Positions 25,200-59,551 of a DNA stretch of 64,000 nucleotides are shown piece after piece. The stretch is from positions 350,501 to 414,500 of the forward strand of contig NZ_JAYKZY010000001.1 of NCBI RefSeq assembly GCF_035818615.1, read 5' to 3'. Under the pieces are notes generated by a model. That model did not search any database and was not told where the DNA came from. It saw only the letters and a program-made list of their open reading frames with translations. The position numbers and the translations under genes were made by a program. Numbering within the stretch: position 1 is the first letter of the stretch; each line of letters opens with the position of its first letter. The stretch comes from Sphingobium sp. CR2-8. GTDB lineage: Bacteria > Pseudomonadota > Alphaproteobacteria > Sphingomonadales > Sphingomonadaceae.

Positions 25200-26966
25200 T
25201 CACAGACATGAACTTTCGGGTCCACTGTCATAATGGGAACCCATCGGCATCTGTCCGATACCCGGATTCATGCGGTTGGACGGATCAAGCGTGCGGTAGA
25301 AGTCCGCCAGCGCCGGTTTGGCCGGGTAGAGATGCCCGACATTATGTTCGGCCGGATATTCAGCGCCGCGATCGTCCAGTACGCGCAATAATTGCGCTTC
25401 GAAATCATGGACGTCCGTACCCTTGCGCACGACATAGTCCTGGTGGAAGACATGGCAGAAGAAATGGCCATAATAGAGTTTGGCGATCGCCGCCGCTTCG
25501 ATGGCGGGCGGCAATGTCTCGGTCCACACCCGGGCATTGCGGGGCAGGGCGATATCCAGCGCGACGATATCCTCCACCCTATCGCGATGCACCTCGCGAT
25601 AGCGCACCGCCGCGCCCGCGACGGCAAAGCGGTGCAGGAACGCCTTGTCCGCTTCCTCTGTTGAACATTCGAAATAATCGCCGTCCCGCCCGGCGAAACT
25701 GCCCTGCAGATAGGCGCGCATGGCGACCAGATCCTCCGCCGCCATGCGCAGCATCAGATGATGCGCATAGCGGTCGCGATAGGCCCGCATCCGCGCCGGC
25801 AGATGCTGCGGAAATAAACCGGCCAGGCGATTGAGCCAGCGATCGGTCAATCCGCGCCCGCCCAGCCCCAGCGCGTCGATCCAGCCATCCACCCGCGCCT
25901 TGGCCGCGAACAGCGCGGGCAGCCGGTCGGTCCCCAGCATGCGCACGGCCAGGAACAGATCCTTGCCATAGTCGGCGGCGATGTCGAACGCGGTACGATG
26001 CACATATTCCGCCGCGATCGGCAGGCCGCCAAAGTCGCGCAACATGTCGCGGCGCACCGTCGCCAGCAGATCGGCGTCATCGGTGCCGATGTAAAAGACG
26101 CCCGATCCGTCCTCCTTTGCAAAACTGTCCAGCCGCACGGCGAACAGCGCCAGCTTGCCCGCGCTGCCCGACGCTTCGTGCAGCTTGCGCGGATCGGCAT
26201 TGAAACGGGCAGGGGTGTCGGCATCTATGTCGCGCACATGGGTCGCATAATCATGGTCGGACGCCCGGCGACCGTCCTCGTGCATGACATCGGCGTCGGT
26301 AAAGGCGCCGCGATCCAGCCGGTTCAACATCGTTTCGGGATCATCGCCCAGCGCCACGCCCAGATGATTGACCAGCGACAGGCGGCCGTCCGCTTCCAGC
26401 CGGGCATAGAGCGCCAGTTCGGTATAGGCCGGTCCCCGCCGCACCAGCGATCCGCCGCTATTATTGCATATCCCGCCCATGACGCTTGCGCCCAGGCAGG
26501 ATGATCCGATCACGCTATGCGGTTCGCGCCCCAACGGTCGCAACCGCCGCTCCAGCGCATCCAGTGTCGCGCCGGGCAGGCAGATGACCTGTCTGCCACC
26601 GTCGATCAGGTGAATGGCCTTGATCCGCGTCGTGCTGATGATGACGACCGGCCGGTCATAGGCGTCGCCATGCGGCGTCGATCCGCCCGTCAGCCCGGTA
26701 TTGGCCGCCTGCATGATGATGGCCGCGCCGGCGTCGATGCAGGCTGCCAGCGCGTGCCATTGTTCGACCAGCGTGCCCGGCCGCACCACCGCCGCCACCT
26801 TCCCCGCTCCGAAACGATAGCCCAGACGGAAGCGCCGCGTTTGCCGATCGCGCGTCAGGACGTGCGAACCACCCACGATCCCTCGCAACCTGACCAGCAG
26901 TTCCGTCGGTTTCCCCGCCATCGCGCCGCTTTGCCCCTCCATCGGACGCATCCGATGCGTCTTCAC
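25200..26966 (-). CDS. dld: Quinone-dependent D-lactate dehydrogenase
   Basis: 588 residues (E. coli Dld has 571). It oxidises D-lactate to pyruvate and passes electrons to the quinone pool at the inner membrane. FAD-binding half: AAIIMQAANTGLTGGSTPHGD, GSSCLGASVMGGICNNSGGSLVRRGPAYTELALYA; the membrane-binding and cap part contains FECSTEEADKAFLHRF, GHFFCHVFHQDYVVRKG and AEHNVGHLYPAKPALADFYRTLDPSNRMNPGIG. Start is uncertain: GTG 26966, ATG 26951 or ATG 26942 all possible. Within this locus it may consume D-lactate made from L-fucose or L-rhamnose-type deoxy sugars, or a related 2-hydroxy acid; this is inference. Confidence 0.92.
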   Translation of the reverse strand: MKTHRMRPMEGQSGAMAGKPTELLVRLRGIVGGSHVLTRDRQTRRFRLGYRFGAGKVAAVVRPGTLVEQWHALAACIDAGAAIIMQAANTGLTGGSTPHGDAYDRPVVIISTTRIKAIHLIDGGRQVICLPGATLDALERRLRPLGREPHSVIGSSCLGASVMGGICNNSGGSLVRRGPAYTELALYARLEADGRLSLVNHLGVALGDDPETMLNRLDRGAFTDADVMHEDGRRASDHDYATHVRDIDADTPARFNADPRKLHEASGSAGKLALFAVRLDSFAKEDGSGVFYIGTDDADLLATVRRDMLRDFGGLPIAAEYVHRTAFDIAADYGKDLFLAVRMLGTDRLPALFAAKARVDGWIDALGLGGRGLTDRWLNRLAGLFPQHLPARMRAYRDRYAHHLMLRMAAEDLVAMRAYLQGSFAGRDGDYFECSTEEADKAFLHRFAVAGAAVRYREVHRDRVEDIVALDIALPRNARVWTETLPPAIEAAAIAKLYYGHFFCHVFHQDYVVRKGTDVHDFEAQLLRVLDDRGAEYPAEHNVGHLYPAKPALADFYRTLDPSNRMNPGIGQMPMGSHYDSGPESSCL

Positions 26967-37231: not shown

Positions 37232-38838
37232 AGAAGCCTCTCATCGCCGCGCTCTGCGCGCTCACGTCCCTGACCGCTCCGGCGCTTGCCCAGAAGTCCG
37301 CGCCGCCATCGCCCTGGCCGATGGATTATCAGGCCGCGCCGGTCGAGGCGCAACTCGCCAAGGTGAAGCAGGGCGTCAACACCGGCCCCTTCCGCCCCGA
37401 CTGGGACTCCCTGCGCGCTTTCCGCACCCCCGCATGGTTTCAGGATGCGAAATTCGGCATCTTCATCCACTGGGGCGTCTATTCCGTCCCAGCCTATGCC
37501 AATGAATGGTATAGCCGGAACATGTATGTGCCGGGCAACGCGGCCTACGAACATCATCTGAAGACCTACGGCCCGCAGAACAAGTTCGGCTACAAGGATT
37601 TCATCCCGCAGTTCAAGGCGGAGAAGTTCGATCCCGCCGCCTGGGTCAGGCTCTTCTCCGACGCGGGCGCCCGCTATGTCGTGCCGGTCGCCGAACATTG
37701 CGACGGCTTCGCCATGTACCAGTCCGCCTTTACGAAGTGGGACTCGGCGGACATGGGGCCGAAACGCGACGTGACCGGCGAAATCGCGAAGGCCGCGCGC
37801 GCCCAGGGCCTGCATTTCGGCCTGTCCTCCCACCGCGCGGAACATTGGTGGTGGTATCATAAGGGCCGCACCTATGACTCCGACGTCAACGATCCGAAAA
37901 ATGCGGGCCTTTACGGTCCCGCCGCGCCCACCGGCCTGCCCGCCGACAAGCCCGACAACTGGCCCGACAGCGATCTGCTCCACAATTGGAGTCCGCCCAA
38001 CAAGCAATTTCTGAACGACTGGATGGCGCGCACGTCGGAACTGATCGACAAATATCAACCCGAACTCATCTATTTCGACTGGTGGACGTCTTCGCCCCTG
38101 TTCGAACCGCTAATGCGCGACACCGCCGCCTATTATTACAACCGCTCCGCGCAATGGAAAGCGCCCGGCATCATCGCCTACAAGGGATCGCAGTTCGCCG
38201 AGGGCAGCGCGATGTTCGACCTGGAACGCGGCAAGACCGACGCGCTCAAACTCACGCCATGGCAGTCCGACACGTCGGTCAGCATCAAAAGCTGGGGCTA
38301 TGCCCAGAATGACAGCTACCGCACGCCCAAATCGCTGGTCGCCGACCTGATCGACATCGTGTCGAAAAACGGCAACCTGCTGCTCAATGTCGGTCCCAAG
38401 GCGGACGGCACCATTCCCGAAGAGATCGCGACCGTCCTGCGCGGCATGGGCGCATGGCTCAAGGTGAATGGCGAGGCCATCTACGGCACACGCCCCTTCC
38501 TCTATTTCGGCGAAGGCCCGACCAAGTCCGGCCATGTCCGCCAGGTCGGCCAGTTCACCGAAAAGAACGTCGCCAGCTTCACGAAGGAAGATATCCGCTT
38601 CACGACGAAGGACGGCCATCTCTATGCGCTGGGGCTGGAACGCCCAGCCGACGGCGCGGTCCTCATCAAGACGCTCTACGCCAACACGCCCTATCTCGAT
38701 CGCACAATCGACCGGATAGACCTGCTCGGCACCGGCGCGGTCCAATGGCAACAGACGGCCCGGGGCCTCAACATCAGCTTGCCGCAAAGCAGCGCCGATG
38801 CGATGCCCTACGCCCTGCGCATCAGCTTCAAAGAATAA
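37228..38838 (+). CDS. Exported GH29 alpha-L-fucosidase
   Basis: 536 residues from GTG 37228 within a GTGA overlap. Signal peptide ends APALAQK. GH29 landmarks: WFQDAKFGIFIHWGVYSVPAYANEWYSRNMY, YVVPVAEHCDGFAMYQS, FGLSSHRAEHWWWY, and the nucleophile Asp in LIYFDWWTS. The C-terminal beta-sandwich has NGNLLLNVGPKADGTIPEE. It releases L-fucose with retention. With the GH42 enzyme next to it, the operon trims fucosylated galactose side chains, such as those on xyloglucan or rhamnogalacturonan II; which polymer is not decided by sequence. Confidence 0.94.
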   Translation: MKKPLIAALCALTSLTAPALAQKSAPPSPWPMDYQAAPVEAQLAKVKQGVNTGPFRPDWDSLRAFRTPAWFQDAKFGIFIHWGVYSVPAYANEWYSRNMYVPGNAAYEHHLKTYGPQNKFGYKDFIPQFKAEKFDPAAWVRLFSDAGARYVVPVAEHCDGFAMYQSAFTKWDSADMGPKRDVTGEIAKAARAQGLHFGLSSHRAEHWWWYHKGRTYDSDVNDPKNAGLYGPAAPTGLPADKPDNWPDSDLLHNWSPPNKQFLNDWMARTSELIDKYQPELIYFDWWTSSPLFEPLMRDTAAYYYNRSAQWKAPGIIAYKGSQFAEGSAMFDLERGKTDALKLTPWQSDTSVSIKSWGYAQNDSYRTPKSLVADLIDIVSKNGNLLLNVGPKADGTIPEEIATVLRGMGAWLKVNGEAIYGTRPFLYFGEGPTKSGHVRQVGQFTEKNVASFTKEDIRFTTKDGHLYALGLERPADGAVLIKTLYANTPYLDRTIDRIDLLGTGAVQWQQTARGLNISLPQSSADAMPYALRISFKE

Positions 38839-40894: not shown

Positions 40895-42199
40895 CTATCC
40901 CCCGCGCCGCACCGTCTCGAAAAAGTCCGGCGCGCCCATCTGCCCGCCCTTCAACACCAGCTCCAGCCCGTCCAGTTCCGGCTCTGCACAATAGGCGCGC
41001 ACCAGCGGCGCACCCCGTTCCAGCGGCGCGGCCCAGGCCAGCGCATCCAGCCCCATCTGCGCAACACCATGGCTGGACGTGTCCCCGCCCGCGAACAGGA
41101 TCCGCCCGATCCCGGTCTGCCGCACCACGTCCCGACTGACCCGCCCCAGCGCCGCACCAATCGCCGCGCCTGCCGCCGGGACCTCGTCCGACAACGGCCC
41201 CTCGGCCGAATGCACCACCACCCGGCCATTGTCGCGCAGCGCTGCCACGGCCGCCTGCGTCAACCGGTCCTCTTCGCCCGGACTGCCGCCCACCAAAGCG
41301 CCGACATCCGCCGCGATCGTCGCAAACCCATCCCCGCGCGCCACGCCGATCTGCGCCGCCGTCACGGGCGAACAACTGCCACTCATCACCAGCAGTCGAT
41401 CGACCGCGCCAGCGCGGGGCAGGGCGGCAGGCGGCGGCACGATCCCCTGCGCCTGCCATGCCCATATCATCGCCCGCGTGACGCCCGAACTGCCCACGGC
41501 GAAGCGGAACCGCGCGCCCTGATGCGCCAGCAAGACCTGTCCCACGGCTTGAAGGCTCGCTTCGTCCATCCCGTCGAACAGGATCGCGTCGTCGCCCTCG
41601 TCGACCGCGCGCAGGAACAGCGCCTCCGCATCCCCCGCCGCGATCCGGTCAATGGGCGCCAGCGCGATCCGCGCCTTCGTTTGCCGCGCCAGATGCAGCC
41701 GCATGTCGGCCTCGGTCATCGGCGTCACCGGATGCCGCGCCATAGTCGGATGCCGGTCGATCCGATGCACCACGCCCCCCGCCGCCGCGAACAGAGTGCC
41801 GAAGATCAGATAGCGCCCCAGATGCGGCGCGCCGATCAGGATCGGCACGATCCCGCCCAGCGCCGCCCGCCCGATCTCCAGCGCGCGCCCGATCGATCCG
41901 ACCGTGGGGCTGCTGTCGAACGTGGAACAGGTCTTGTAATGCATGATCGGCGCGCCGCCCGCGCCCAGCGCCGCAAAAGCGCCCGGCAGATGCGCATCCA
42001 TCCATGCGGGCGATTGGCTGCGCGCGTCGCCCGCCAGCCCGATCGCCCGCACATCGGGAAAGCGCGCCCGCAGCGCCTCGTCGGGCTGCCGCAGGAACAG
42101 GATCGCGGGCACTCCGCCTTCGGCCAATTGCTCCAGCACATCGGTCGACCCGGTAAAATCGTCGCCGTAAAAGGCGTAGAGCAGATCGGTCATGGCCAT
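40895..42199 (-). CDS. DUF1537 four-carbon acid sugar kinase family protein
   Basis: 434 residues. N-terminal YGDDFTGSTDVLEQL (11-25) is the hallmark of the family, with the substrate domain continuing to about 240; the C-terminal nucleotide domain has LLVMSGSCSPVTAAQI and FAGGDTSSHGVAQMGLDAL. Members phosphorylate erythronate, threonate, 3-oxo-tetronates or 3-oxo-isoapionate (OiaK). It follows the RuBisCO-like protein gene by 110 bases containing a palindromic repeat, on the same strand. The kinase + RuBisCO-like pair is characteristic of 3-oxo-isoapionate use, where the kinase makes the 4-phosphate that the RuBisCO-like protein splits. Confidence 0.9.
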   Translation of the reverse strand: MAMTDLLYAFYGDDFTGSTDVLEQLAEGGVPAILFLRQPDEALRARFPDVRAIGLAGDARSQSPAWMDAHLPGAFAALGAGGAPIMHYKTCSTFDSSPTVGSIGRALEIGRAALGGIVPILIGAPHLGRYLIFGTLFAAAGGVVHRIDRHPTMARHPVTPMTEADMRLHLARQTKARIALAPIDRIAAGDAEALFLRAVDEGDDAILFDGMDEASLQAVGQVLLAHQGARFRFAVGSSGVTRAMIWAWQAQGIVPPPAALPRAGAVDRLLVMSGSCSPVTAAQIGVARGDGFATIAADVGALVGGSPGEEDRLTQAAVAALRDNGRVVVHSAEGPLSDEVPAAGAAIGAALGRVSRDVVRQTGIGRILFAGGDTSSHGVAQMGLDALAWAAPLERGAPLVRAYCAEPELDGLELVLKGGQMGAPDFFETVRRGG

Positions 42200-42216
42200 G
42201 ATCCCGAAATATATCT

Positions 42217-42297
42217 CGTCATCCCAGCACAGGCTGGGATCTCAGGCGGCAGCGTAAAGCCCCGCAAGACCCAGCCCGCGCTGAGATGACCTAGGAT
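42217..42297. repeat. Palindromic repeat (ATCCCAGC-ACAG-GCTGGGAT) with a flanking partner
   Basis: The perfect 8-base stem is at 42221-42240 inside GTCATCCCAGC...GGGATCTCAG, with a second mirrored piece (GCTGAGATGAC) at 42279-42289. The same stem with a GAAG loop is at 47631-47650. Typical dispersed repeat of proteobacteria, here inside the RuBisCO-like/kinase operon, where it may reduce read-through to the kinase gene. Confidence 0.7.
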
Positions 42298-42309
42298 AGT
42301 GAAGGCGCG

Positions 42310-43578
42310 TCAGCCCGCAAAGGCCGCCAGCGCATCGCGCAATTCCGGGTCCTGGCTTGCCGCCTCCGCCAGGTCGACGCCCGCCATCGCCGCGTCCCAC
42401 GCCTGCCGCAGCGCGCGCACGCCCGCGCCCGGCCCACCGGGATGCGCCATGATCCCGCCGCCCGCCGCAAAGATCAGGTCGGTCGAACCCAGCGCGGCAA
42501 AGGTCGCGGGCACCTGCCGCGCCGACTGGCCGGACGAAAAGACCGGCATGATCTCGCAACCGGGATGGGGCGCAAGAAACATCGGCGTCAAACATTCGCG
42601 CGCCGACGCGATCACGCTTTCGTCGCTCTCGCAAAATTTATTGTCGATGCCGTTCACATGGGTGTGATCGATGCCCGCGAGCCGCCATAATTTCTGGAAC
42701 GCGATATAGCTCATGCCGATCGCGGGCGACCGGCCCAGCATGCCCCAGCCATTGCGATGCCCATGGATCGGCAGTTGCGCATGCGCGCGCAGCATCTTCA
42801 TCGCAGGCAGGCCGATGCTGTTCATGCTCGCCATGATGCAGGTGCCGCCTTCGCGCAGCACATGGTCGTGCCGCGCCAGCATCTCGTCCATGTCGCCGGT
42901 CAGGTTGGCGGCGAACATCACCTTCTTGCCGGTCCGCTCGGCATGATCATTGATGACCCGCATCACCGCGCTCACACGCGCGTCGAACGGGCAATGCGGC
43001 CCATCGGCCTGCAATTCGTCGTCCTTGATGAAGTCGACGCCCGCCTCCACCAGCCCACGCACCTGATCGGCGGTGGCCTCCGGCGACAGGCCCACGCTCG
43101 GCTTGATGATCGTCCCGATCATCGGCCGATGATAGACGCCCGCCAGCTTGCGCGTTCCCGCCACCCCGAATTGCGGCCCCTGATACCGGGTCAGGAAAGC
43201 GGGCGGCAAAGTCACGTCCACCAGCCGCAATCCGGAAAAGGCCTTCAGCTCCGACAGATTGCCGTTGATCGTCGCCAACAGATTGGGCAGCGAAACCCCG
43301 AAATTGGACAACGGCCAGGACAAGGTCACCTGCGCCCGCCGTCGCTTCCCATCGCCCCCGCCTTTGGGCAGGCCCGAGCCGGGTAGCGACGGCGTCGCGA
43401 CCTCGCCCAGTTCGACCAACTGCTCGACCCGCGCCGCATGCGCTTCCCGCAATGCGTCCGTTTCGCCGGGCACGCGGACGAAGGTGCCGGTCGACTGCTC
43501 GCCCGCCATGGTCGCCGCCGCCTGGCTCAGCGGAAAGGCCGTCTCGATCTCATAGGTCGCATAAACGCGGTCCGTCAT
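42310..43578 (-). CDS. RuBisCO-like protein (form IV; OiaX-type candidate)
   Basis: 422 residues. RuBisCO large-subunit fold: VYATYEIETAFPLSQAAATMAGEQSTGTFVRV, Lys159 in GTIIKPSVGL, the metal/carbamate segment VDFIKDDELQADGPHCPFDARV with Lys185, Asp187 and Glu188 kept, HGHRNGWGMLGRSP, and the phosphate-binding AGGGIMAHPGGPGAG. The loop-6 lysine region of true RuBisCO is replaced (NGIDNKFCESDESV), so carboxylation of ribulose bisphosphate is not expected. Known members with such context process 3-oxo-isoapionate 4-phosphate, giving 3-phosphoglycerate and glycolate. ATG overlaps the GH127 stop by four bases (ATGA). No Calvin-cycle genes nearby. Confidence 0.9.
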   Translation of the reverse strand: MTDRVYATYEIETAFPLSQAAATMAGEQSTGTFVRVPGETDALREAHAARVEQLVELGEVATPSLPGSGLPKGGGDGKRRRAQVTLSWPLSNFGVSLPNLLATINGNLSELKAFSGLRLVDVTLPPAFLTRYQGPQFGVAGTRKLAGVYHRPMIGTIIKPSVGLSPEATADQVRGLVEAGVDFIKDDELQADGPHCPFDARVSAVMRVINDHAERTGKKVMFAANLTGDMDEMLARHDHVLREGGTCIMASMNSIGLPAMKMLRAHAQLPIHGHRNGWGMLGRSPAIGMSYIAFQKLWRLAGIDHTHVNGIDNKFCESDESVIASARECLTPMFLAPHPGCEIMPVFSSGQSARQVPATFAALGSTDLIFAAGGGIMAHPGGPGAGVRALRQAWDAAMAGVDLAEAASQDPELRDALAAFAG

Positions 43579-48974: not shown

Positions 48975-49703
48975 TCAGATCGTCCAGCCGCCGTCGATAT
49001 TGTGGATCTGCCCGGTCGTGTAGGTCGCGCCCGCCAGATAGACGACCAGGTCGGCGATCTCCTCGGCGCGCCCCAGCCGCCCGATCGGCTGCCGCGCGAC
49101 GAAGGCGGACCGCGTCGCCGCATAATCTCCCTGCGCCGCCAGCCGGGCGTTGAGCGAGGGCGTATCCACCGTGCCGGGGCAGATGGCGTTGCACCGCACG
49201 CCCTGCGCCACATGATCCGCCGCCACCGCCTTGGTCAGGCCGATGACCGCCGCCTTGGTCACGCCATAGACGAAGCGGTTCGGCACGCCCTTCACGCTGG
49301 ATGCGACCGACGCCATGTTGATGATCGCCCCGTCGCCGCGCGCGATCATGCCGGGCAGAACGGCGCGGACCATCCGCGTCATCGCCTTGACGTTCAGCGC
49401 ATAGGCGAAGTCCAGATCCTCGTCCGACGCCTCCAGCACCGTGCCGCCATGCACCACCCCCGCACAGTTGAAGAGGATATCGGCCCGCCCGGTCAGGGCG
49501 GCCGCCGCATCTATGGCGTCCTTGCTCAACACGTCCAGCCGCGCCGTCTCGACCCGCTCGCCCGCCAGGTCGGCCAGCGCGCCTTCATCGATGTCCGTCG
49601 CGATGACATGCGCCCCGGCCTCCATCAGCGCCAGCACGGACGCGCGCCCGATGCCATGGGCGGCGGCGGTCACGAGGGCGGTCTTGCCCGACAGGTCGAT
49701 CAT
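48975..49703 (-). CDS. SDR, BDH2-like (2-keto-3-deoxy-L-fuconate dehydrogenase candidate)
   Basis: 242 residues, AAGGAG 6 bases before ATG 49703. The sequence follows the BDH2/DHRS6 subgroup closely: LVTAAAHGIGRA, NCAGVVHGGTVLEA, NMASVASSVKGVPNRFVYGVTKAAVIGLTKAVAAD, RCNAICPGTVDTPSLNARL and a final NIDGGWTI. Catalytic Tyr and Lys are in YGVTK. Bacterial members of this subgroup include the dehydrogenase that oxidises 2-keto-3-deoxy-L-fuconate in the non-phosphorylated L-fucose route. With a fucosidase and rhamnosidase in the locus a deoxy-sugar-acid substrate fits, but the earlier enzymes of that route were not seen here. Confidence 0.85.
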   Translation of the reverse strand: MIDLSGKTALVTAAAHGIGRASVLALMEAGAHVIATDIDEGALADLAGERVETARLDVLSKDAIDAAAALTGRADILFNCAGVVHGGTVLEASDEDLDFAYALNVKAMTRMVRAVLPGMIARGDGAIINMASVASSVKGVPNRFVYGVTKAAVIGLTKAVAADHVAQGVRCNAICPGTVDTPSLNARLAAQGDYAATRSAFVARQPIGRLGRAEEIADLVVYLAGATYTTGQIHNIDGGWTI

Positions 49704-49727
49704 ATGTTTCTCCTTAAACCCTTGGCC

Positions 49728-50777
49728 TTAAACCCCTGGCAGCGCCGTGCCGGGCTGCATGTTGGACTGGTAACAGGCCTCGACCAGCGCCATGGTGCGC
49801 CATGCGTCCTCGACATGGGTGGCAAGCTGCGCATCCTCCCCCGCCGCGAAGCGCTGCACATTCGCCATCGGCCCGATGAACGCGTCGGGGAACCACGCAC
49901 CGGTCAGCGGCACCTGTTCCCACGGACCCCCGCTCTTCGCGATCCACAATGCATCCGGCTCGCCGGTCGGATAGTCGAGCAGCAGGCCCAGCTTCACCAT
50001 CGCCGCGCCCTTCGTTCCTTCGACGCGGAACGACGCATCCTGAAACTGCCGTCCGAAATCATGATGATGGTTGATCGACAGCGTCACCCGCAACGTCGAC
50101 CCATAATCCAGTATCGCGCTGGTCCGCGTATCCGCCAGGACACTGGATGGATGCCCATAACTGCGCGCGAACACCCCCTTGGGATCGCCGACCAGCGCCC
50201 GGATCATGTCCAGATAATGGATCGAATGGGACACGATCTCCACCCGCGCATTGTCGTTGAGATGCGGAAAGAGATGCCAGGGCGTCACCAGATTGAGATG
50301 CACCTCGATTTCCACCAGTTCGCCCAGATCGCCGCGCGCCACGGCGTCCGCCACCGCCAGCATCATCGGCGCATAACGTAATTGGAAATTGACCGCCGCG
50401 ATCAGGCCACGTGCCCGGCACATCGCCCGGATCGCGCTCGCCTCCTCCAAATTCAGCCCCATCGGCTTTTGCAGCAGCACGCTTGCTCCTTCGGGCAAGG
50501 CCGCCAATATCGCCCGATGCGCGACCGGCGGCGCGGCGACATCGAACACGGCGTCCTGCGCGGCGGCCTCGTCCAACGACCTGAACACGCGCGGAATGTC
50601 CCACGCCTCCGCCAACGCCTTCGCCCGCCCTGCATCGGTGTCGAACAGCCCGGCCACGGCAAAACCCGCCTTGCGATAGGCGGGCAGATGCGCGTCCTTC
50701 ACGATCCCGCCCGCGCCGATGATGACGATGGGCCGGGGAGCGGACGGCATCGCCCAGCTTTGCCGCAGCGCCCTCAC
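49728..50777 (-). CDS. Gfo/Idh/MocA-family sugar dehydrogenase
   Basis: 349 residues from GTG 50777 inside a GTGA overlap with the upstream binding-protein-like gene. Rossmann half: IVIIGAGGIVKDAHLPAYRKAGFAVAGLFD; the family EKP motif is QKP (VLLQKPMGLNLEEA), so the first residue is changed but the catalytic lysine is kept. The second half contains HSIHYLDMIRALVGDP with the usual histidine. Members oxidise sugars or inositols with NAD(P). D-apiose dehydrogenase is in this family; given the RuBisCO-like protein and DUF1537 kinase, that is a testable assignment, not an established one. Confidence 0.85.
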   Translation of the reverse strand: MRALRQSWAMPSAPRPIVIIGAGGIVKDAHLPAYRKAGFAVAGLFDTDAGRAKALAEAWDIPRVFRSLDEAAAQDAVFDVAAPPVAHRAILAALPEGASVLLQKPMGLNLEEASAIRAMCRARGLIAAVNFQLRYAPMMLAVADAVARGDLGELVEIEVHLNLVTPWHLFPHLNDNARVEIVSHSIHYLDMIRALVGDPKGVFARSYGHPSSVLADTRTSAILDYGSTLRVTLSINHHHDFGRQFQDASFRVEGTKGAAMVKLGLLLDYPTGEPDALWIAKSGGPWEQVPLTGAWFPDAFIGPMANVQRFAAGEDAQLATHVEDAWRTMALVEACYQSNMQPGTALPGV

Positions 50778-51967
50778 AGGATCGCCTCCGCCGCAGTTTG
50801 CGCCTGCGCCAGCAATGCGCCGGTCGGCACGTCGCTGGTCATCGCCTTGCCCAGCATATCGTCCACCACATGACTGATCGCGGCCAGATGCGGCGTCGGC
50901 GGCATCGTGCGGGCATGCGCATGCAGCCAGTCGAGCTTGTGATAATAGGGGATCGTCGCATTGATGTCCGGATCGTTCCAGCTCGACCGCCGCACCCCGA
51001 TAGCGCCCTCCGTCGTGGTCAGCTTGTCCATCGGCGCGCTCGCCAGATGGCGCAGGAAATTCCAGGCCAGCGCCTTGTTGCGCGATCCCGACCCGATCCC
51101 CAGCACCCAGAAGACGTTCAGCGACACGCTCGTCCCGCCGGGGCCGGCGGGCAGGGGGGCAACGTCGACCAGGCCGCGAACCTTGCTGTCCTCCGCCGTA
51201 TCGGCATAGGCGGCAAAGCCGAACCAGTTCGCCATCATCGCGACCTTGCCCTGCGCGAACAACATGCCCGACGCCACGCTGTCCGTCTCGCGCGCACCCG
51301 GGGCGACCGCGCGCGCATCCCCCGCCAGCGCCCGCAGATAGTCCAGCGCCGCATGGGCCTGCGTTGACAGGAAATCCGGCCGTCCCCCTGCATCGAACGG
51401 CTCGCCGCCGCGCGACCAGATATGGATGCAGAAATCGTAGAATCCGTTATGCCCATCGGGAAACTGCGCCAGCACCGTGCCGTAGCGTTCCTCTTCCGGC
51501 CGATGCAGCACACGGGCGGCGGTATGAAAATCCGCCCATGTCTGCGGCACGGCCAATCCCGCCTCGGCCAGCAGATCCTTGCGATAGACCAGGCATTCCG
51601 GCCCGTCATGGTAGGGCATCCCCCAATAGCCCCCGGCAAAGTGCTGCATCGTCGTCAACGACGGCGACCAGGCGTTGGGAAAATCGGCGATCGGCGCGCG
51701 CGCCATGAGTGGCGTCAGATCCTCCAGCAGCCCTTCGCCTTGCGCCTGCGCCAGCCAGTCGGTCGCCATGAAGGCGATGTCCCATTCGCCGGTCGCCAGT
51801 CCCCGCCGCGCGATGATCGCGTCATGCAGCGGATTGAGGTCCATCGCGACCGGCTCGATATCGGCCTCTATCCCGGCGGTCGCGCGGAAATCCGCGAACT
51901 GCTTGACGATGGCGCTCTCGAACGGCCCGAACCGCCGTACCGCAATGCGCAGGGTGGGCCTGCTCAT
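50774..51967 (-). CDS. Solute-binding-protein (family 1) homologue without a signal peptide
   Basis: 397 residues. The chain begins directly with the first strand of a family-1 binding protein (TLRIAVRRFGPFESAIVKQFADF) and has no hydrophobic leader, lipobox or Tat motif. Family traits: DIAFMATDWLAQAQGEGLLEDLTPLM, GGYWGMPYHDGPECLVYRKDLLAEAGL, VPQTWADF, GKVAMMANWFGFAAY, and the C-terminal helical part. The permeases normally paired with family-1 proteins (MalF/MalG type) are absent. Start overlaps the RbsC stop (ATGA) and its stop overlaps the Gfo/Idh start, so it is fixed in the operon. A cytosolic ligand sensor, chaperone or enzyme role is inferred. A second such gene is at 57312. Confidence 0.8.
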   Translation of the reverse strand: MSRPTLRIAVRRFGPFESAIVKQFADFRATAGIEADIEPVAMDLNPLHDAIIARRGLATGEWDIAFMATDWLAQAQGEGLLEDLTPLMARAPIADFPNAWSPSLTTMQHFAGGYWGMPYHDGPECLVYRKDLLAEAGLAVPQTWADFHTAARVLHRPEEERYGTVLAQFPDGHNGFYDFCIHIWSRGGEPFDAGGRPDFLSTQAHAALDYLRALAGDARAVAPGARETDSVASGMLFAQGKVAMMANWFGFAAYADTAEDSKVRGLVDVAPLPAGPGGTSVSLNVFWVLGIGSGSRNKALAWNFLRHLASAPMDKLTTTEGAIGVRRSSWNDPDINATIPYYHKLDWLHAHARTMPPTPHLAAISHVVDDMLGKAMTSDVPTGALLAQAQTAAEAIL

Positions 51968-53085
51968 GCCGCGCCTCCCTTGGGCCGCCGCGCCCGTCCT
52001 GCGCCCACCGTATAGATGGCCGCCGCCGCGATCACGACCACGCCCTCGATCAGCCCCTGATAATTGGCGCCCAGATTGAGGATGTTGAATCCATTGGTCA
52101 GCGTGAACAGCAGCAGCGCGCCGACCACCGTCTTCACCACGCTCCCGGCCCCGCCGAACAGCGATGTGCCGCCCAATATCGCTGCGGCGATCACCGTCAG
52201 TTCCGCCCCCTGCAAGGCGGTCGGATTGATCGCGCCCAGTCGGCAGGCGAAGAGGATACCGGCAAAGCCCGCTGCCACGCTCGACAGGACGAACGCGCCG
52301 ATCCGATAGGCGTTGACGTTGATGCCCGACAGCCGCGCCGCCTCCGCATTGCCGCCGACTGCATAGACCCGCCGCCCGACCACGGTGAAGCGCAGCACGA
52401 ACCCGATGACGCCCGCAAAGATCGCCAGATAGACAACCGGCGCGGCGACGCTCACCTCACGCCCCGCCAGCAGCGCGCCGACGACCAGGGCAACGCCGCC
52501 GATCGCAGACGGCGTCCGCCGCCATGTCGCCGCCAGTCCCAGCAAGCCCAGCCCCACGACCAGCATCGGCCAGAACAGCGGCATCCGCCCGCTTTCGAAC
52601 GCCAGCATCTGCGCCAGCACATCGGGCCGGTCCACCATCAGCGATCGGCCGTCCGTCAGGATCAGCACCAGCCCGCGCACCGCCGTCAGCGTCCCCAGCG
52701 TCACGATGAACGCGTTGATCCCGACAAACTGCACGATCGCGCCATTGAGCAGCCCGATTGCGCCCGCCGTACATAGCGCCGCAACCGCCGCCGCCGGAAA
52801 GCCGATCTGCCCGGCCAGCGCGATCAGCACGGCCGCGGCAAGGGCGGCCACCGACGCCACCGACAGGTCGAACGCGCCGGTGATCAGCATCACCGTCATG
52901 GCGACCCCCATGATGCCGACCAGCGACGCCTGATAGGCGATGTTCCCCAGATTCTGCCCCGAAATATAGGGCGGCAGGCCCCGGCTGGCCGCGATCCCCG
53001 CCAGCACCGCGACCAGCAGCGCCAGCGCATAATAGACGCCCGCCTCGCGCAGGCCGAAAATGCGCCGCATAGTCTGCGCGTTCAT
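51964..53085 (-). CDS. ABC transporter permease, RbsC/ribose-type
   Basis: 373 residues with about ten hydrophobic segments. Landmarks of the RbsC family: GAFDLSVASVAALAA (core helix), FIVTLGTLTAVRGL, AVGGNAEAARLSGINV (the loop contacting the ATPase) and GGTSLFGGAGSVVKTVVGALLLFTLTNGFNIL. It forms the inner-membrane channel of the transporter completed by the ATPase at 53082 and binding protein at 54568. ATG overlaps the corrected ATPase stop as ATGA, and its own stop overlaps the next start likewise. Confidence 0.93.
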   Translation of the reverse strand: MNAQTMRRIFGLREAGVYYALALLVAVLAGIAASRGLPPYISGQNLGNIAYQASLVGIMGVAMTVMLITGAFDLSVASVAALAAAVLIALAGQIGFPAAAVAALCTAGAIGLLNGAIVQFVGINAFIVTLGTLTAVRGLVLILTDGRSLMVDRPDVLAQMLAFESGRMPLFWPMLVVGLGLLGLAATWRRTPSAIGGVALVVGALLAGREVSVAAPVVYLAIFAGVIGFVLRFTVVGRRVYAVGGNAEAARLSGINVNAYRIGAFVLSSVAAGFAGILFACRLGAINPTALQGAELTVIAAAILGGTSLFGGAGSVVKTVVGALLLFTLTNGFNILNLGANYQGLIEGVVVIAAAAIYTVGAGRARRPKGGAA

Positions 53086-54568
53086 GCGGATACTCCTTGG
53101 GAAACATCCGCCCGGCTTCCCCGGCGGCCAGAATGAGGTCGGTCTTGCTGATCTGCGCCGGATCGACCTGCGTCACCACGCGCCCGTCGCGCATCACCAG
53201 GATGCGATCGCAAATGGCGATCAGTTCCTCGAACTCGGACGACACCAGCAGGACCGGCAATCCGTCGTCGGCCAGCGCGCGCACCAGCCGCAGGATGTCG
53301 GTCCGCGCGCCGATGTCGATGCCTGCGGTCGGCTCGTCCAGCATCAGCACACGGGTCCGGGCTTTCAGCCATTTGGCGATCACCACCTTCTGCGCATTGC
53401 CGCCCGACAGTTCCGATGGCAGCGCATCGACGCCCGGCGTCTTGATCGACAGGCGTTCGATCGCCGCCTGCGCTTCCGCGCGCTCCCGATCCTGGGCCCG
53501 CAACAGCCCCAGATCGTCGCCCAGCGCGATATTGTCGCTGATCGACAACAACGGCGCATAGCCCTGTTTCGCCCGATCCTCCGGCACCAGCGCCAACCCG
53601 GCCATCACCGCCTCGTCGGTCCGCCGCGCCACCGGCTGTCCATTCAGCAGGACCACCCCACGCGCCTGCCGGTCCGCGCCGAAAATCGCATGCAACAATG
53701 CACTGCGCCCCGACCCCAGCAGCCCGGCGATCCCGACGATCTCGCCCGTCCGCACCGTCAGGTCGGTCGGCGCCAATCCGGCAGACGCCAATCCCCGCAC
53801 CTCCAGCACGGCCTCGCCAAAGTGCCGGTCCCGCCCATCGCGATGCAGCGCCGCGACCGATCGTCCGGCAATGGCGTCGGCGATATCCGTTTCGGTAAGG
53901 TCCGCCGTGCGCGCGTCCAGCACCGCCCGTCCATCGCGCAGCACAGTCACGCTGTCGGTCAGCGCCACGATCTCGTCGATGAAATGCGAAATGAACAGCA
54001 CCGTCCGCCCCTCCGCCTTCAGTCGCCGGATCGTCGCATAAACAGTGTCCCGCTCATGCCCGGCCAGCGATGCGGTCGGTTCGTCCATGATGATCAGTTG
54101 CGCGTCCGCCGTCAGCGCGGCCACGATGGCGATCATCTGCCGCTTGCCGATGGGCAGATCCTCGACCAGCGCATCCAGCGGGAAGGGATCGCCCAGATCG
54201 GCGACGATCGCCTGCACCTTCGCCCGCACCGCCCGGTCGTTGCGCCATAGTCCGCCAGCATCCAGCAGGATATTCTCCATCGCCGACAGCGTCGGCACCA
54301 GCGGGACATGCTGATAGAGGGTCGCGATTCCCGCCGCTCTCGGCGCGGCCGGACCGGTCCAGGCGCGCGGCTCGCCCCGCCATGCGATCGCCCCGCCACT
54401 GGGCTGCAACGCGCCTGCCAATATCTTGATCAGTGTCGATTTGCCTGCGCCGTTCGCGCCCAGCAGGCCATGCACCGTCCCGGCCTCGATCGACAGATCC
54501 ACGCCCTTCAGCGCCGTGGTGCCGTTGGGAAAGGTCTTCGCAATCCCCTCTAGTGCCAGGACAGGCAT
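53082..54568 (-). CDS. ABC transporter ATPase, RbsA-type (3' end frameshifted in this sequence)
   Basis: Two ABC domains in one chain, 495 residues after correction: Walker A GANGAGKSTLI, signature DLPIGKRQMI and Walker B LIIMDEPTASL in the first half; degenerate second half with GLLGSGRSALLH, LSGGNAQKVVIAKWL and VLMLDEPTAGID, as in RbsA. From ATG 54568 the frame as printed has no stop near the permease start and would run 625 bases out of frame into it, to 52457. One extra base in the C runs 53108-53122 gives an end at 53082 within an ATGA overlap with the permease. It powers sugar uptake. Confidence 0.88.
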
Positions 54569-55583
54569 CACCACTGCCCCACGCACGCATCGACATTGGT
54601 CCGCGTAACGGCAGGAATGGGATAGGTCTGGAAGCGCGCGCCTGCTTTCCCCCTTGCGCCGCGCGATGCAGCGCCGCGAACGCCAGCGCGCCGAGCGCCT
54701 CGGGCTTGAAACAGACCGTGCCGTCCACCGCCCCCGCCTTGATCGACGCGATGGCCAGCCGCGATCCGCCCACGCCGATCAGCCGCGCTTTTGATCCCGC
54801 TGCCCGCACCGCCCGCGCGCAGCCGACCACCATGTCGTCGGCTTCGTTGAAGAACAGGTCGACCTGCGGCTGCGCGCTCAAAATATTCTGGCACGCCGCC
54901 TCACCTCCTTCGGCCGACCAGTTGCCCGGCTGCGACGCCACGATCCGATAGCGCACGCCCGCCGCGTCCAATGCCCGCATAAAGCCCCGCGCGCGCTGTT
55001 CGACTTCGGGATAGCCCGCTGCGCCCTCGATCACGGCGATCCGCGCCGCGCGCGCCTTGGGCAACAAGGTCGCCGCCAGTCGCCCGGCCGCTTCGCCCGC
55101 CGTCACCTCATCCTGCGATACCAGCGCGGTCAGCCCGGGATAGACGTCGCGCACGTCGCGCGTGCGCGGATCGCCGATCAGCGCCGCCACCGACGCTACC
55201 GCTATGCCACGCCGCCCGATCCGGTCGACCCAGCCCTGCGCCACCATGCTGTCGATCGGCATGATCGCGATGCCCTTGACCTGTTGCGCGACCAGATCGT
55301 CGATATCATTGGCCTGTTTCTGCACGCCGCCCTTCGCGTCCAGCACCACCGCGACGGCGCCCGCTTGCGCCGCCGCGTCGCTGAATCCCTTGGCGATGGC
55401 CGCCGCGAAGGGATAGCTCAGCCCCACGGTCGACAACCCATAGCGATCGCCGCCCACAGGCAGGGCAGGGGCGGGCGACCGTCCCGCCATGACCGCCTGC
55501 CGCACACTCAGCAGGGAAGCCGCCGCAACCAGCACGGTCACGATCGACAATCCGGTCAAGATATGGCGGCTGCGCAGGATCAT
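54568..55583 (-). CDS. ABC transporter sugar-binding protein, RbsB-type (3' end frameshifted in this sequence)
   Basis: 338 residues after correction. N-terminal membrane segment ILTGLSIVTVLVAAASLL serves as export signal or anchor. Periplasmic-binding type I fold: YGLSTVGLSYPFAAAIAKGFSDAA, AKGGVQKQANDIDDLVAQQVKGIAIMPID, VIEGAAGYPEVEQRARGFMRAL, FFNEADDMVVGCARAV. At about 54650 the printed frame leaves the family sequence and would run 514 bases into the ATPase gene. One extra C in the run 54649-54653 gives the expected tail, FQTYPIPAVTRTNVDACVG, and a stop at 54568 overlapping the ATPase ATG (TGATG). It captures the sugar for the RbsA/RbsC pair. Confidence 0.87.
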
Positions 55584-55587
55584 GGGT

Positions 55588-56034
55588 TCAGGCGTGCCGC
55601 CGCGTCACCAGATAGAGATGCTCGCACGCCAGCACGGTTTCGTCGCGCTGGTTGCGGATGTCGACCGCTTCGGTGACGATGCCATGGCCGGCGCGTTTGG
55701 GATGATCGCGCATGTCGGCGATGCGGGTGATGGTGCGGATCGTGTCGCCGATATGCACCGGCCGGATGAAGCGCAGCCGGTCATAGCCGTACGACATGGC
55801 GTGCGGATTGATGGTCGTCGCGGTCAGGCCGATGCCGATGCTGAATATCAACGTGCCATGGGCGATACGCTGCCCGAAATCCTGCGTCGCGCACCAGTGC
55901 GCGTCCATATGATGGGGGAAAAAGTCGCCGGTATGCCCGGCATGGACCACGAAGTCGGTTTCCGTGATGGTCCGGCCGAAACTCTGCCGTTCCGACCCGA
56001 TGACATAGTCCTCAAAATACTGCTCGACGATCAT
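55588..56034 (-). CDS. MaoC-like acyl-CoA hydratase/dehydratase (hot-dog fold)
   Basis: 148 residues, single hot-dog domain. [33 protein letters not shown] leads to the hydratase-2 region [15 protein letters not shown], where Asp and the second His match the catalytic pair; the usual Asn before Pro is Phe. [20 protein letters not shown] is the typical second half. It adds or removes water on a CoA thioester. ATG overlaps the stop of the CaiB gene (ATGA), so a CoA-transferase product is its probable substrate. MaoC-CaiB pairs occur in itaconate and mesaconate use, but here both lie in a sugar operon. Confidence 0.88.
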
Positions 56035-57206
56035 GGGGCACCTGTCAGTTCGGATTGGATGGCGGATCTGTCCGCGCCCAGACGGGGGGCGGCCCTGTCA
56101 TTCTTGATGATTTGCCCGTCGATCCGGATCGGGCAGCGGGTCAGAGCCAGCGTTTCGCCGTCGGGCGATCGCACCTGCTGCACCGCGTCCAGCGCGCCGA
56201 AGCCCGGATCGTTGGTCAGCGTCGGCCAGTCCTGCACCGGCGCGGCCCATATGCCCGCCGGTTCCAGCAGCGACAGCCAATGCGCGGTGGTGTCCGCGCG
56301 CAGATGATCGCGCAGCACGGCCTTGATCGCGTCGCGGCGGCTGAACCACTGTTCCGCCGGGAAAGCTGCCAATGCCGCACAGTCGATCAGCGCGCCCAGG
56401 CGATCCACAGGAGCCATGGCGATCGCGATATAACCGTCCGCCGTTCCATAAATGCCATAGGGCGCGGCCAGATAGAGATTGGCGTTGGCGATATCGCTCC
56501 GCTCCGGCATGGTGCCGCGTCGATTGAGATAGACCGCCAGATGCTCGAACTGCAAATCGATCGCCGTTTCGATCAGGCTGACGTCGACGCGCCCGCCTTC
56601 GCCGGTCACGCCCCGCCGCACCAGCAGCGCCAATATGCCCTGCACCAGTTGCGCACCGGCCATCATGTCGGTGATGGACAGCCCGGCGGGCACCGGCGGC
56701 CCGTCGCCATCGCCCGACAGCCAGGCGATGCCCGACAGCGATTGCACCAGCAGATCCTGCCCCGGCTTGTCGCGCCACGGACCTGTCGGCCCATAGCCGC
56801 TCACCCCGGCATAGACGATGCGCGGATGGATCGCCCGCACGTCATCCCACCCCAAGCCCAGCCGGTCCATGATGCCGGGTCGGAAATTGTGGATCAGCAC
56901 ATCCGCCCGCGCGATCAGTTGCTTAACCAGCGCCAGATCGTCGGCGTGCTTCAAATCGGCAGTCAGGCTTTGCTTGCCGCGATTGATCGCGTGGAACAGG
57001 GCGCTGTCCTGGTCGAACGGCAGGTCGGCCAGATACAGGCTCCGGCTTGCGTCACCACCATCGGGCCGTTCCACCTTGATGACCCGCGCGCCCAGGTCGC
57101 CCAGCCGCAGGGCGGCCGAAGGACCGGCCAGGAACTGGCTGAAATCCAGCACCGTCAGCCCGGTCAGGGGCAGCAGCGGCTTTCGATCCCTGGCATCAAA
57201 CGGCAA
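56031..57206 (-). CDS. CaiB/BaiF-family (class III) CoA-transferase, copy 1
   Basis: 391 residues. Class III signature: [48 protein letters not shown], and the catalytic Asp151 in PGQDLLVQ, with [18 protein letters not shown] later. It moves CoA between carboxylic acids. It begins the nine-gene leftward operon (CaiB, MaoC, RbsB, RbsA, RbsC, binding-protein-like, Gfo/Idh, SDR, beta-propeller glycosidase) and is divergent from the second binding-protein-like gene and second CaiB. The shared AT-rich motif F lies just upstream of the start. It shares long runs with copy 2, so duplication or a heteromer is likely. Confidence 0.92.
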
Positions 57207-57224
57207 CGGACACCCTCTCCGTGA

Positions 57225-57246
57225 TAATTATCATTTAATATGATAT
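57225..57246. promoter_or_regulatory. AT-rich operator candidate F (minus strand begins ATATCATATTA)
   Basis: Read on the minus strand, ATATCATATTA (57246-57236) equals the first 11 bases of motif A, followed 4 bases on by ATAATTA. It lies in the divergent gap between the two CoA-transferase transcripts, tying them to the glycosidase genes that carry the same motif. Confidence 0.55.
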
Positions 57247-57311
57247 TTTCTCAGGCTATGGAGATGCATAGAATGAGTCAACCTAATTGTCCGACTAACT
57301 GGGGGCGCGCG

Positions 57312-58427
57312 ATGCGAGGCATGACATGGGACCATCCGCGTGGCGTCGATCCGCTGCTGGCCGCCTCGCGCGCCTGGTACAACCGCACGGGGCAGGAAAT
57401 CGTCTGGGACCGCCGCTCGCTCCAGGATTTCGAAACCTATCCGGTCGAGGAACTGGCGCGCCAATATGACCTGATCGTCATCGACCATCCCCATGTCGGA
57501 CAAGTGGCCGACGCGGGATGCCTCGCGCCGCTCGATACGCTCTGCACTGCTACGGCTTTGGCGGAGATCGAGGCGGGCAGCGTCGGCCTCTCCTATCCCA
57601 GCTACCGATGGAAAGGGCGTCAATGGGCGCTGCCGATCGACGCCGCGACGCAGGTGCAGGCGTGGGTGCCCGGTCGTCTGGCCGCGCCGCTGCGAAACTG
57701 GGACGATGTCGTCGCGCTCGCGCGTGCCGGTGCGCTGGCGCTGCCGCTGCGCGCGCCGCACAGCCTGATGACGCTTTTCTCGCTGTGCGGCCTGGACGCT
57801 GTGCCCCTCAATGTCGATGGTCCGCACCTCTTCCCGGCGCAGGCCGCGACCGCCTATGACCGTCTGGCGCAATTGGCCGACCTGATCGACCCGATCGCCT
57901 ATGATCAAGATCCCATCGCCGTGCTGGAGGTGATGGGCAGCGCGCATTCTGCCCTTGCCGCATCGCCCTTCATCTACGGCTATGTCAGCTATGCGCAGGA
58001 TGGGTTCCGCCCGACGCGCATCGCCTTCCACGATCTGCCCGTCACCGGCGCGGCCGGTCCCGCCGGTTCGGCGCTGGGCGGCACCGGCCTCGCCATTTCC
58101 GCCAGCAGCGCCTGCCTGGCGGACGCCGCCGCCTTCGCCCAATGGGTCGCCAGCGGTCCGGTCCAGACCAACCTTTTTGCGCCCTCGGGCGGCCAGCCGG
58201 GGCATGCCCAGGCCTGGGAAGATGACGGCATCAACGGCCTGACCGCCGACTTCTACCGGGCCACCCGGGCCACGCTGGATCGCGCGTGGCTCCGTCCCCG
58301 CCATACCGGCTATATGGCCTTCCAGCAGCAGGCATCCGATCGCCTGAACCAGGCGTTGCGCACGCGCGAGGATGCGGCGTCCGCGATCGTCGCCCTCAAC
58401 ACGCTGTTCGCCCGGAGTTTCGGATGA
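57312..58427 (+). CDS. Second solute-binding-protein homologue without a signal peptide
   Basis: 371 residues from ATG 57312 (GGGGG 6 bases upstream). The mature-protein fold starts at once: MRGMTWDHPRGVDPLLAAS, WYNRTGQEIVWDRRSLQDFE, VEELARQYDLIVIDHPHVGQVADAGCLAPLD. A G-Q-D-like central region (PSYRWKGRQWALPIDAATQVQAW) and a C-terminal segment with GLTADFYRATRATLDRAWLRPRH follow. No leader, lipobox or Tat motif is present with any start. Its stop overlaps the start of CaiB copy 2 (ATGA). Homologues next to CaiB genes are known to me from other proteobacteria but have no assigned function. Confidence 0.78.
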   Translation: MRGMTWDHPRGVDPLLAASRAWYNRTGQEIVWDRRSLQDFETYPVEELARQYDLIVIDHPHVGQVADAGCLAPLDTLCTATALAEIEAGSVGLSYPSYRWKGRQWALPIDAATQVQAWVPGRLAAPLRNWDDVVALARAGALALPLRAPHSLMTLFSLCGLDAVPLNVDGPHLFPAQAATAYDRLAQLADLIDPIAYDQDPIAVLEVMGSAHSALAASPFIYGYVSYAQDGFRPTRIAFHDLPVTGAAGPAGSALGGTGLAISASSACLADAAAFAQWVASGPVQTNLFAPSGGQPGHAQAWEDDGINGLTADFYRATRATLDRAWLRPRHTGYMAFQQQASDRLNQALRTREDAASAIVALNTLFARSFG

Positions 58428-59551
58428 CCGACGATCGCCCCCTCGGCGGCCTGCTTGTGCTGGACATGGCGCAATTCCTCTCCGGCCCCTCCGCCGCGCT
58501 GCGCCTGGGCGACCTTGGCGCGCGGGTGATCAAGGTCGAACGGCCCGGGGCAGGCGATATCTGTCGCAGCCTCTATCTGACGGACACCGACATAGGCGGC
58601 GATTCCACCCTGTTCCACGCCATCAACCGGAACAAGGAAAGCATCGCGCTCGACTACAGGGACGAAGCCGATCGAGACATGCTCTACCGCCTCGCCGATC
58701 GCGCCGACGTGGTGATCCAGAATTTCCGCCCCGGCGTCGCCGATCGCCTGGGCGTCGGCCCGGACCAGTTGCGCGCCCGCAACCCCCGGTTGATCGTCGG
58801 CACCATTTCGGGCTATGGCGACGATGGCCCATGGGCCGGTTGGCCGGGACAGGATCTGCTGGCGCAGGCGCTTTCCGGCGCGATGTGGCTCAGCGGCAGC
58901 GCCGAAGACGGCCCGGTCCCCTTCGGCCTGTCCATCGCCGACATGTTGTCGGGCCATTTGCTGACCGAAGGGATATTGGCCGCCTTGGTCCGTCGCGGGA
59001 TCAAGGGGGTGGGCGCCCATGTCGAAACCAGCCTGCTCGAAGCGATGGTCGACCTCCAGTTCGAAGTGCTCACCACCCATCTCAACGACGGCGGCCGCCT
59101 GCCGCGCCGGGCACAGGTCCGCAACGCTCATGCCTATCTTGCCGCGCCCTATGGCGTCTATCGCACGGCGGACGGCTGGCTGGCATTAGCCATGACGCCG
59201 CTGCCCAAGCTGGCGCCCTTGCTCGACGTCGCCCTGGATGGCGACGCCTTCATCGACCGGGATCGGCTCCAGTCCGTGATCGCGCACCGGATCGCGCAGC
59301 AGGATACGGCCAGCTGGCTCGTCCTTCTACGCGCGCAGGACATCTGGTGCGCGGAGATATTGCACTGGCCCGACCTCCTGGCGTCGGAGGCATTCCGCCG
59401 CCTCGACCTGCTGCAAACCATTCCCTCGCGCGACAGGCCGGTGGTGACGACCAGAAGCGCGATCCGGATCGACGGTCGCCGGTCAGACCGCCCCGCCGGC
59501 GCGCCGCACGTCGATCAGCAGGGCAGCGCGATCAGGGCGGAATTTGCCTGA
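58424..59551 (+). CDS. CaiB/BaiF-family (class III) CoA-transferase, copy 2
   Basis: 375 residues from ATG 58424. [52 protein letters not shown], and catalytic Asp144 in PGQDLLAQ. It matches copy 1 across nearly the whole length. Both copies keep the catalytic aspartate, so neither is a dead subunit by that test. Being co-translated with a binding-protein-like gene on one side while copy 1 is co-translated with MaoC on the other suggests a two-part system acting on one acid or on a donor/acceptor pair. Inference. Confidence 0.92.
   Translation: MTDDRPLGGLLVLDMAQFLSGPSAALRLGDLGARVIKVERPGAGDICRSLYLTDTDIGGDSTLFHAINRNKESIALDYRDEADRDMLYRLADRADVVIQNFRPGVADRLGVGPDQLRARNPRLIVGTISGYGDDGPWAGWPGQDLLAQALSGAMWLSGSAEDGPVPFGLSIADMLSGHLLTEGILAALVRRGIKGVGAHVETSLLEAMVDLQFEVLTTHLNDGGRLPRRAQVRNAHAYLAAPYGVYRTADGWLALAMTPLPKLAPLLDVALDGDAFIDRDRLQSVIAHRIAQQDTASWLVLLRAQDIWCAEILHWPDLLASEAFRRLDLLQTIPSRDRPVVTTRSAIRIDGRRSDRPAGAPHVDQQGSAIRAEFA

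Follow-up and report, generated by a model that had tools for sequence, protein, structure and literature searches.

A recurring CoA-transferase, hydratase and leaderless binding-protein module in sugar-catabolic gene clusters: a possible CoA-dependent route for sugar acids in Sphingobium sp. CR2-8

The gene cluster analysed here occupies positions 48975 to 59551 of a 64,000-nucleotide stretch of Sphingobium sp. CR2-8 DNA (contig NZ_JAYKZY010000001.1, positions 350,501 to 414,500), referred to below as the window, and combines family III coenzyme A (CoA) transferases, a hydratase and leaderless homologues of sugar-binding proteins with the genes of a sugar transporter and two dehydrogenases. 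An earlier note, made from the sequence alone, had listed two CaiB transferases, a MaoC hydratase, two leaderless substrate-binding proteins (SBPs), an RbsABC transporter, a Gfo/Idh dehydrogenase and a short-chain dehydrogenase (SDR); all of them were found, with the expected Pfam domains. Instead of the single operon proposed there, they form two divergent units. The plus-strand unit consists of SBP_B, a leaderless MalE-like sugar-binding-protein homologue (57312..58427), and the CoA-transferase CaiB2 (58424..59551; PF02515, 4e-91). The open reading frame (ORF) of SBP_B reaches back to 57240; its database entry, P0003, counts 371 amino acids, which makes a start at about 57312 the likelier one. 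The minus-strand unit runs from CaiB1, a paralogue of CaiB2 (56031..57206; PF02515, 2e-98), through a MaoC-type (R)-hydratase (55588..56034; PF01575, 5e-20), an RbsB-like exported binding protein with a hydrophobic N-terminus (54562..55583; PF13407, 2e-42), an RbsA-like ATPase with two PF00005 stretches (53082..54568), an RbsC-like permease (51964..53085; PF02653, 5e-34), the second leaderless SBP homologue, SBP_A (50774..51967; PF01547, 2e-32, and PF13416), and a Gfo/Idh dehydrogenase, probably an aldose 1-dehydrogenase (49728..50777; PF01408, 2e-15), to the SDR (48975..49703; PF13561, 4e-48).

The four-base overlaps said to tie these genes together are present for CaiB1/MaoC, RbsC/SBP_A, SBP_A/Gfo and SBP_B/CaiB2; MaoC and RbsB are separated by a gap of 4 bases, Gfo/Idh and SDR by one of 24 bases, and RbsA and RbsC overlap only in a shifted frame. 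At the 3' ends of rbsB (54540-54720) and rbsA (53060-53180), the orthologous C-termini lie in another frame, hence two apparent frameshifts, which from their sequence may be sequencing errors or real lesions; they concern the transporter and leave the enzymes unaffected. Between the divergent units lies an intergenic stretch without assigned strand (57207..57311), a possible promoter/operator region. An inverted repeat ATCAT-N5-ATGAT stands at 57222-57245 and was seen by eye in the printed regions of some, not all, relatives. The palindrome TGATAATTATCA at 57222-57233, with a single exact copy in the window, was considered as an operator and given little weight, matches with up to two mismatches being also found in 46 of 100 shuffles of the window.

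As for the two CoA-transferases, PF02515 spans the full length of both, and they are 50% identical. Asp173 of CaiB2, a catalytic-type residue, is invariant in the nine aligned CaiBs (9/9), and CaiB1 has the invariant Asp as well; we take it to correspond to the catalytic Asp169 of formyl-CoA transferase. With NCBIfam, neither the CaiBs nor MaoC, Gfo/Idh or the SBPs reached the cut-off of any model, the best models for the CaiBs being succinate-glutarate and succinyl-CoA:mesaconate transferases, all far under their cut-offs. CaiB2 matches the crotonobetainyl-CoA:carnitine CoA-transferase 1xk6 at 1e-17 and is, by sequence, nearer to transferases of the formyl/oxalate type. A tree of 70 CaiBs, some deep joins of which depend on long branches, places all 52 proteins from SBP loci in one group with support 98/69 (one value high), which the CaiB of genome G468 alone joins. 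The CaiB1 gene of genome G006, of the same genus as the window, is split by about 1.6 kb of unmatched DNA (L027 6870-8470).

The MaoC protein of the window is close to PDB 4ffu and has an intact catalytic Asp/His pair, retained in 21 of 21 close relatives among the 48 loci described below; the Asp-x4-His motif is presumably that of PhaJ. A second Labrenzia MaoC (L035 10256-10822), adjoining CaiB, carries Val at the expected catalytic His, a replacement shared by all 10 of its relatives in the same loci, and is perhaps a non-catalytic partner.

Concerning the two binding proteins, SBP_B is assigned to the SBPs by fold and Pfam and SBP_A by Pfam only, and the export signal of such proteins was found in neither. 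A hydrophobic N-terminal stretch reached the threshold in none of the 360 family proteins examined (120 in each of three lists, including SBP_A and SBP_B of the window; 120 of 120 in the SBP_A list were without it) vs. 14 of 21 exported SBPs, the test consisting of the hydrophobicity of the first 40 residues alone, with no dedicated signal-peptide or lipobox predictor. The leaderless proteins therefore seem, as far as their N-termini indicate, to stay inside the cell. According to fold searches, which covered SBP_B, its predicted structure is a complete MalE-like, sugar-SBP fold; the AF2 model of SBP_A is less confident (pLDDT 77) and too weak for such a search. SBP_A is 30% identical to an exported SBP of a Sinorhizobium meliloti cluster. 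Unlike the MalE-like proteins LpqY, SmoF and TMBP, the module SBP has no hydrophobic N-terminus, is coupled to CaiB and not to a permease, and possesses strongly conserved WDHPRG and IDHPHVG stretches. In S. meliloti 1021, the SBP gene lies at pSymB 732468-733580. The SBP_B family is large: of 7997 candidates scored, 3536 match at E up to 0.001, and the named members of that candidate list are mostly labelled extracellular or sugar-transport binding proteins.

The distribution of the SBP_B family was then analysed without reference to CaiB, which gave 48 loci in 42 genomes; these include related genomes, hence are not independent. The family was found in 9 of 61 genomes of relatives, 9 of 387 of the class, 13 of 397 of the order and 21 of 397 of the phylum, these samples overlapping and, for class, order and phylum, only the best few candidates per genome being scored. 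A truncated locus (G025), a weak one (G037) and all plasmid and genome_contigs loci stand outside the count. CaiB lies within 1.5 kb of the SBP in 39 of the 48 loci, and 37 of the 48 have the two genes on the same strand, either overlapping or no more than 4 bases apart, some of the overlaps being inflated by the longest-ORF rule. All 39 CaiB-bearing loci encode a hydratase within 6 kb (MaoC in 24, crotonase in 14, both in 1), and 24 of them a sugar-type ATP-binding cassette (ABC) ATPase or permease. Sugar-catabolic markers are present within 6 kb in 38 of these 39; homologues always occurring without sugar genes, which the earlier note had named as the outcome that would break the link to sugars, were thus not what was found.

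By comparison, 17 further CaiB loci, taken from six of the genomes and covering 20 of the 28 non-module CaiB rows (8 left out), showed a hydratase in 3 cases, a sugar-type ABC transporter in 3 and the SBP_B family in none. The models applied to both sets were derived from module members (E up to 1e-10), and distant hydratases may escape them in module and control loci alike. A chance neighbourhood is ruled out by the linkage in 39 of 48 loci, the few CaiBs per genome (4-12 matches in the six genomes counted) and the control loci. Nine of the 48 loci lack a CaiB within 6 kb: in G708 and G1129, CaiB is about 14 and 10 kb from the SBP, in G856b, G1043b and G852b, CaiB and a crotonase are about 6-9 kb away, and the stretches read of the other four contain no CaiB.

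Three architectures can be distinguished. Type 1, found in sphingomonads, rhizobia and others, contains Gfo/Idh, MaoC, usually SDR, CaiB, SBP_B and a CUT2 or CUT1 transporter, with an extra CaiB1 and SBP_A in the sphingomonad variant. Type 2 contains DUF4432, SDR, CaiB, SBP and crotonase, often with a fumarylacetoacetate hydrolase (FAH) family protein and a 2-hydroxyacid dehydrogenase. A third form, seen in the two genomes G973 and G950, which belong to other classes of the phylum, has an SBP, two CaiBs, a crotonase and an aldehyde dehydrogenase. The FAH protein of the Pseudosulfitobacter type-2 cluster is nearest to PDB 9kkt, then to 2-keto-3-deoxy-D-arabinonate dehydratase. Croceibacterium has the gene order of the window minus the SDR, near an alpha-L-fucosidase. 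The conserved neighbourhoods of the three architectures back the sugar link, the leaderless SBPs and the order of import, oxidation, CoA activation and hydration or dehydration suggested for the window in the earlier note. Since two unrelated hydratase folds occupy the same slot, acyl-CoA hydration or dehydration would be the shared chemistry; as these clusters also encode a dehydrogenase that forms an acid, the least complicated assumption is that this acid is activated with CoA and then hydrated or dehydrated.

With regard to the sugar, the Gfo/Idh, MaoC and SDR proteins of the window are respectively 61, 66 and 68% identical to counterparts in the S. meliloti cluster, in which an L-fuconate dehydratase, an L-rhamnose mutarotase, a FAH family protein and an amidohydrolase are also annotated; for that FAH protein, the 2,4-didehydro-3-deoxy-L-rhamnonate hydrolase model, whose cut-off is 500, gives 424 bits. 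The Labrenzia and Shinella clusters resemble this cluster. Because of this 60-68% identity to rhizobial clusters with an annotated L-fuconate dehydratase, L-fucose, or a sugar related to it, is the best guess. Mutant fitness reportedly ties SMb21103-21113, the pSymB cluster of S. meliloti, to L-fucose. Growth of S. meliloti on L-fucose is listed in a table of PMC4207669. In the window itself, a polysaccharide gene set (27277-49213) comprises a TonB receptor, a GDSL esterase, glycoside hydrolases of families GH106, GH42 (two), GH29 (a fucosidase, 37228-38838) and GH127 and a GH32/43/130-like protein, and could fit rhamnogalacturonan-II or a similar pectin. A kinase and a RuBisCO-like protein at 40895-43578 are nearest to OiaK and OiaX of the apiose route, at 458 and 454 bits for a curated cut-off of 700. 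Apiose was considered as the substrate in view of these nearby genes and set aside, since relatives of the module accompany fucose-type genes.

Our preferred reading, to which we give a probability of about 40%, is that the cluster imports and oxidises a 6-deoxyhexose and dehydrates the aldonate as a CoA thioester, by analogy with the logic of carnitine dehydration. The sugar, probably L-fucose or a close relative freed from plant polysaccharide, would be imported and oxidised by Gfo/Idh to a lactone, from which a lactonase would give the aldonate. CaiB would load CoA onto this aldonate, MaoC would eliminate water from the acyl-CoA, and CaiB would then hand the CoA to the next aldonate, so that the net reaction would be a CoA-catalysed dehydration of the sugar acid; the SDR could subsequently oxidise the deoxy-keto acid. 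The leaderless SBP, given its linkage and fold, would be a cytosolic ligand-binding partner that captures the sugar acid, free or as a CoA ester, for CaiB. A wider and more doubtful proposal is that of an undescribed CoA-dependent sugar-acid dehydratase, made of CaiB, a cytosolic binding protein that derives from sugar ABC transporters and captures the substrate as a subunit, and a hydratase that may interchangeably be of the hotdog or the crotonase fold; the unit might be portable between sugar clusters of the L-fucose, pentose and other types and might replace the enolase-superfamily aldonate dehydratase in sphingomonads.

The distribution of conventional dehydratases bears on this reading in both directions. 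An L-fuconate dehydratase (FucD) orthologue is absent from the genome of the window, G000, where the best match is 30% over 129 residues, the same search giving 77% over the full length in G035; in total, FucD orthologues are absent from 9 of 15 type-1 genomes, that of the window included. Dehydratases of the MR/MLE, IlvD, UxuA and galactarate types (four models) were found neither within the type-2 operons (16 loci, two of which start or stop near a contig end) nor in the 64-kb window.

Several observations weigh against it. FucD is present elsewhere in the genome in 6 of 15 type-1 genomes, and an MR/MLE gene is divergent from the operon in 6 of 16 type-2 loci; two further type-2 loci, from Sinorhizobium, have downstream MR/MLE genes, of which one is divergent and the other shares the strand of the operon at a distance of about 10 kb. 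The Labrenzia and Shinella clusters combine an annotated L-fuconate dehydratase with CaiB, SBP and MaoC, the S. meliloti ml66 plasmid has both (about 23 kb, with insertion sequence elements, separating CaiB-SBP from the dehydratase gene), a galactarate/altronate-type dehydratase belongs to the cluster in G414, G284, G1136 and G1101, and an IlvD/EDD gene lies beside that of G410. With conventional dehydratases beside the module in these clusters, replacement of fuconate dehydratase by the module everywhere is ruled out, and the CoA branch may therefore act on another acid. The CoA route proposed in the earlier note can thus not simply be the sole one in these relatives. Four distant SBP loci (G254, G410b, G408 and G197) are without CaiB in the stretches read, and the type-2 cluster of G468 (DUF4432-SDR-CaiB-crotonase; L174 9720-13840) is without SBP, so that the SBP-CaiB tie is not absolute. 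As for the sugar, the pSymB cluster has a CUT1-type transporter, unlike the fucose-induced CUT2 system reported for S. meliloti: a fucose-induced orthologue of a CUT2 binding protein is reported in an excerpt of PMC6421345, and SMc02773/02775, a chromosomal locus, appears in one of PMC12542648 as a putative L-fucose transporter and dehydrogenase. In view of these other S. meliloti loci, L-fucose is a possible rather than an established substrate of the pSymB cluster.

The joint retention of a conventional dehydratase and the CoA module would be explained if the CoA branch acted on a modified or alternative sugar acid, for example that of a 2-O-methylated or epimeric sugar, its product entering an ordinary fucose or pentose route. 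Type 1 indeed accompanies a 6-deoxyhexose-type route and the Pseudosulfitobacter FAH protein points to a pentose-type one; GH106, GH29, GH127 and the OiaX/OiaK-like apiose genes of the window would fit rhamnogalacturonan-II, which contains 2-O-methyl-fucose and 2-O-methyl-xylose. A different substrate for the CoA branch is thus to be taken seriously as a rival to our preferred reading. We nevertheless hold this explanation to be somewhat unlikely: a gene dedicated to methylated sugars was not identified, the removal of an ether by a hydratase is not obvious, and the apiose-family matches are under their curated cut-offs. It is also conceivable, and in our estimate unlikely, that the substrate of the CoA-transferase and hydratase is a small acid or acyl group set free from a decorated sugar, or else a non-sugar acid of the same plant origin, the sugar genes being co-regulated neighbours. 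Such substrates would agree with the best NCBIfam models of the CaiBs and with the TRAP transporters, aldehyde dehydrogenase or AMP-binding enzyme near some distant loci, but not with the near-constant sugar-catabolic markers (38 of 39) or with the predicted sugar-SBP fold of SBP_B.

That same fold, however, would also suit intracellular sensors or storage proteins for a sugar acid, regulating the cluster with no direct part in CoA chemistry. The four loci without CaiB in the stretches read, which are sugar-acid clusters, speak for such a role of the leaderless SBPs, as does a Microvirga member of the family (L062), likewise without CaiB, in a region whose annotation is possibly incomplete. 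The close coupling of SBP to CaiB (37 of 48 loci) and the presence of IclR, the sole regulator family counted, within 6 kb in just 18 of 48 loci make this role quite improbable.

Compared with known systems, the module is closest in logic to carnitine dehydration, which uses the CoA-transferase CaiB and the crotonase CaiD: in both, a family III CoA-transferase and an acyl-CoA hydratase serve a hydroxy acid (in the module, putatively), and the two are encoded together in each of the 39 CaiB-bearing loci. Unlike the carnitine system, the module has sugar genes, a leaderless SBP, two CaiB paralogues and, in type 1, MaoC in the place of crotonase. Oxidative L-fucose clusters encode a dehydrogenase, a lactonase, a fuconate dehydratase, an SDR and a FAH hydrolase, these steps being given partly in an excerpt of PMC11378808 and partly from general knowledge. 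The window shares with them Gfo/Idh, SDR and a sugar ABC transporter; it differs by the missing fuconate dehydratase orthologue and by its additional CaiB, MaoC and SBPs, and the best FAH match in its genome (58%) lies at another locus. Deoxyribonate oxidation, for which we know of no leaderless SBP and which we take to differ from the module in enzymes and chemistry, is alike in placing a sugar-derived acid in a CoA thioester. Its glyceryl-CoA step, as an excerpt of PMC9007349 describes it, weakens the claim of the earlier note that CoA on a sugar-derived acid falls outside the usual routes.

Each protein family is known; for their recurring combination with a cytosolic SBP, the literature searched yielded no description, most subscription papers lying outside that search. 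If the preferred reading is true, CoA chemistry could bring about the dehydration of sugar acids that textbook routes leave to metal-dependent dehydratases, and a receptor fold of the periplasm would have been relocated to the cytoplasm as the helper of an enzyme. The large SBP family would then be misnamed, and steps of fucose and pentose breakdown in plant-associated bacteria would become testable.

Some minor observations concern the surroundings of the module. The 663-amino-acid ORF in L055 gave no family match. In Methylobacterium nodulans (L061 6486-14723), MaoC-CaiB-SBP adjoins a four-carbon acid sugar kinase, PdxA and an AMP-binding enzyme. Finally, an FCD-type regulator stands beside a membrane D-lactate dehydrogenase at 24372-26966 of the window, and a like-named pair is found near the Croceibacterium copy of the module.

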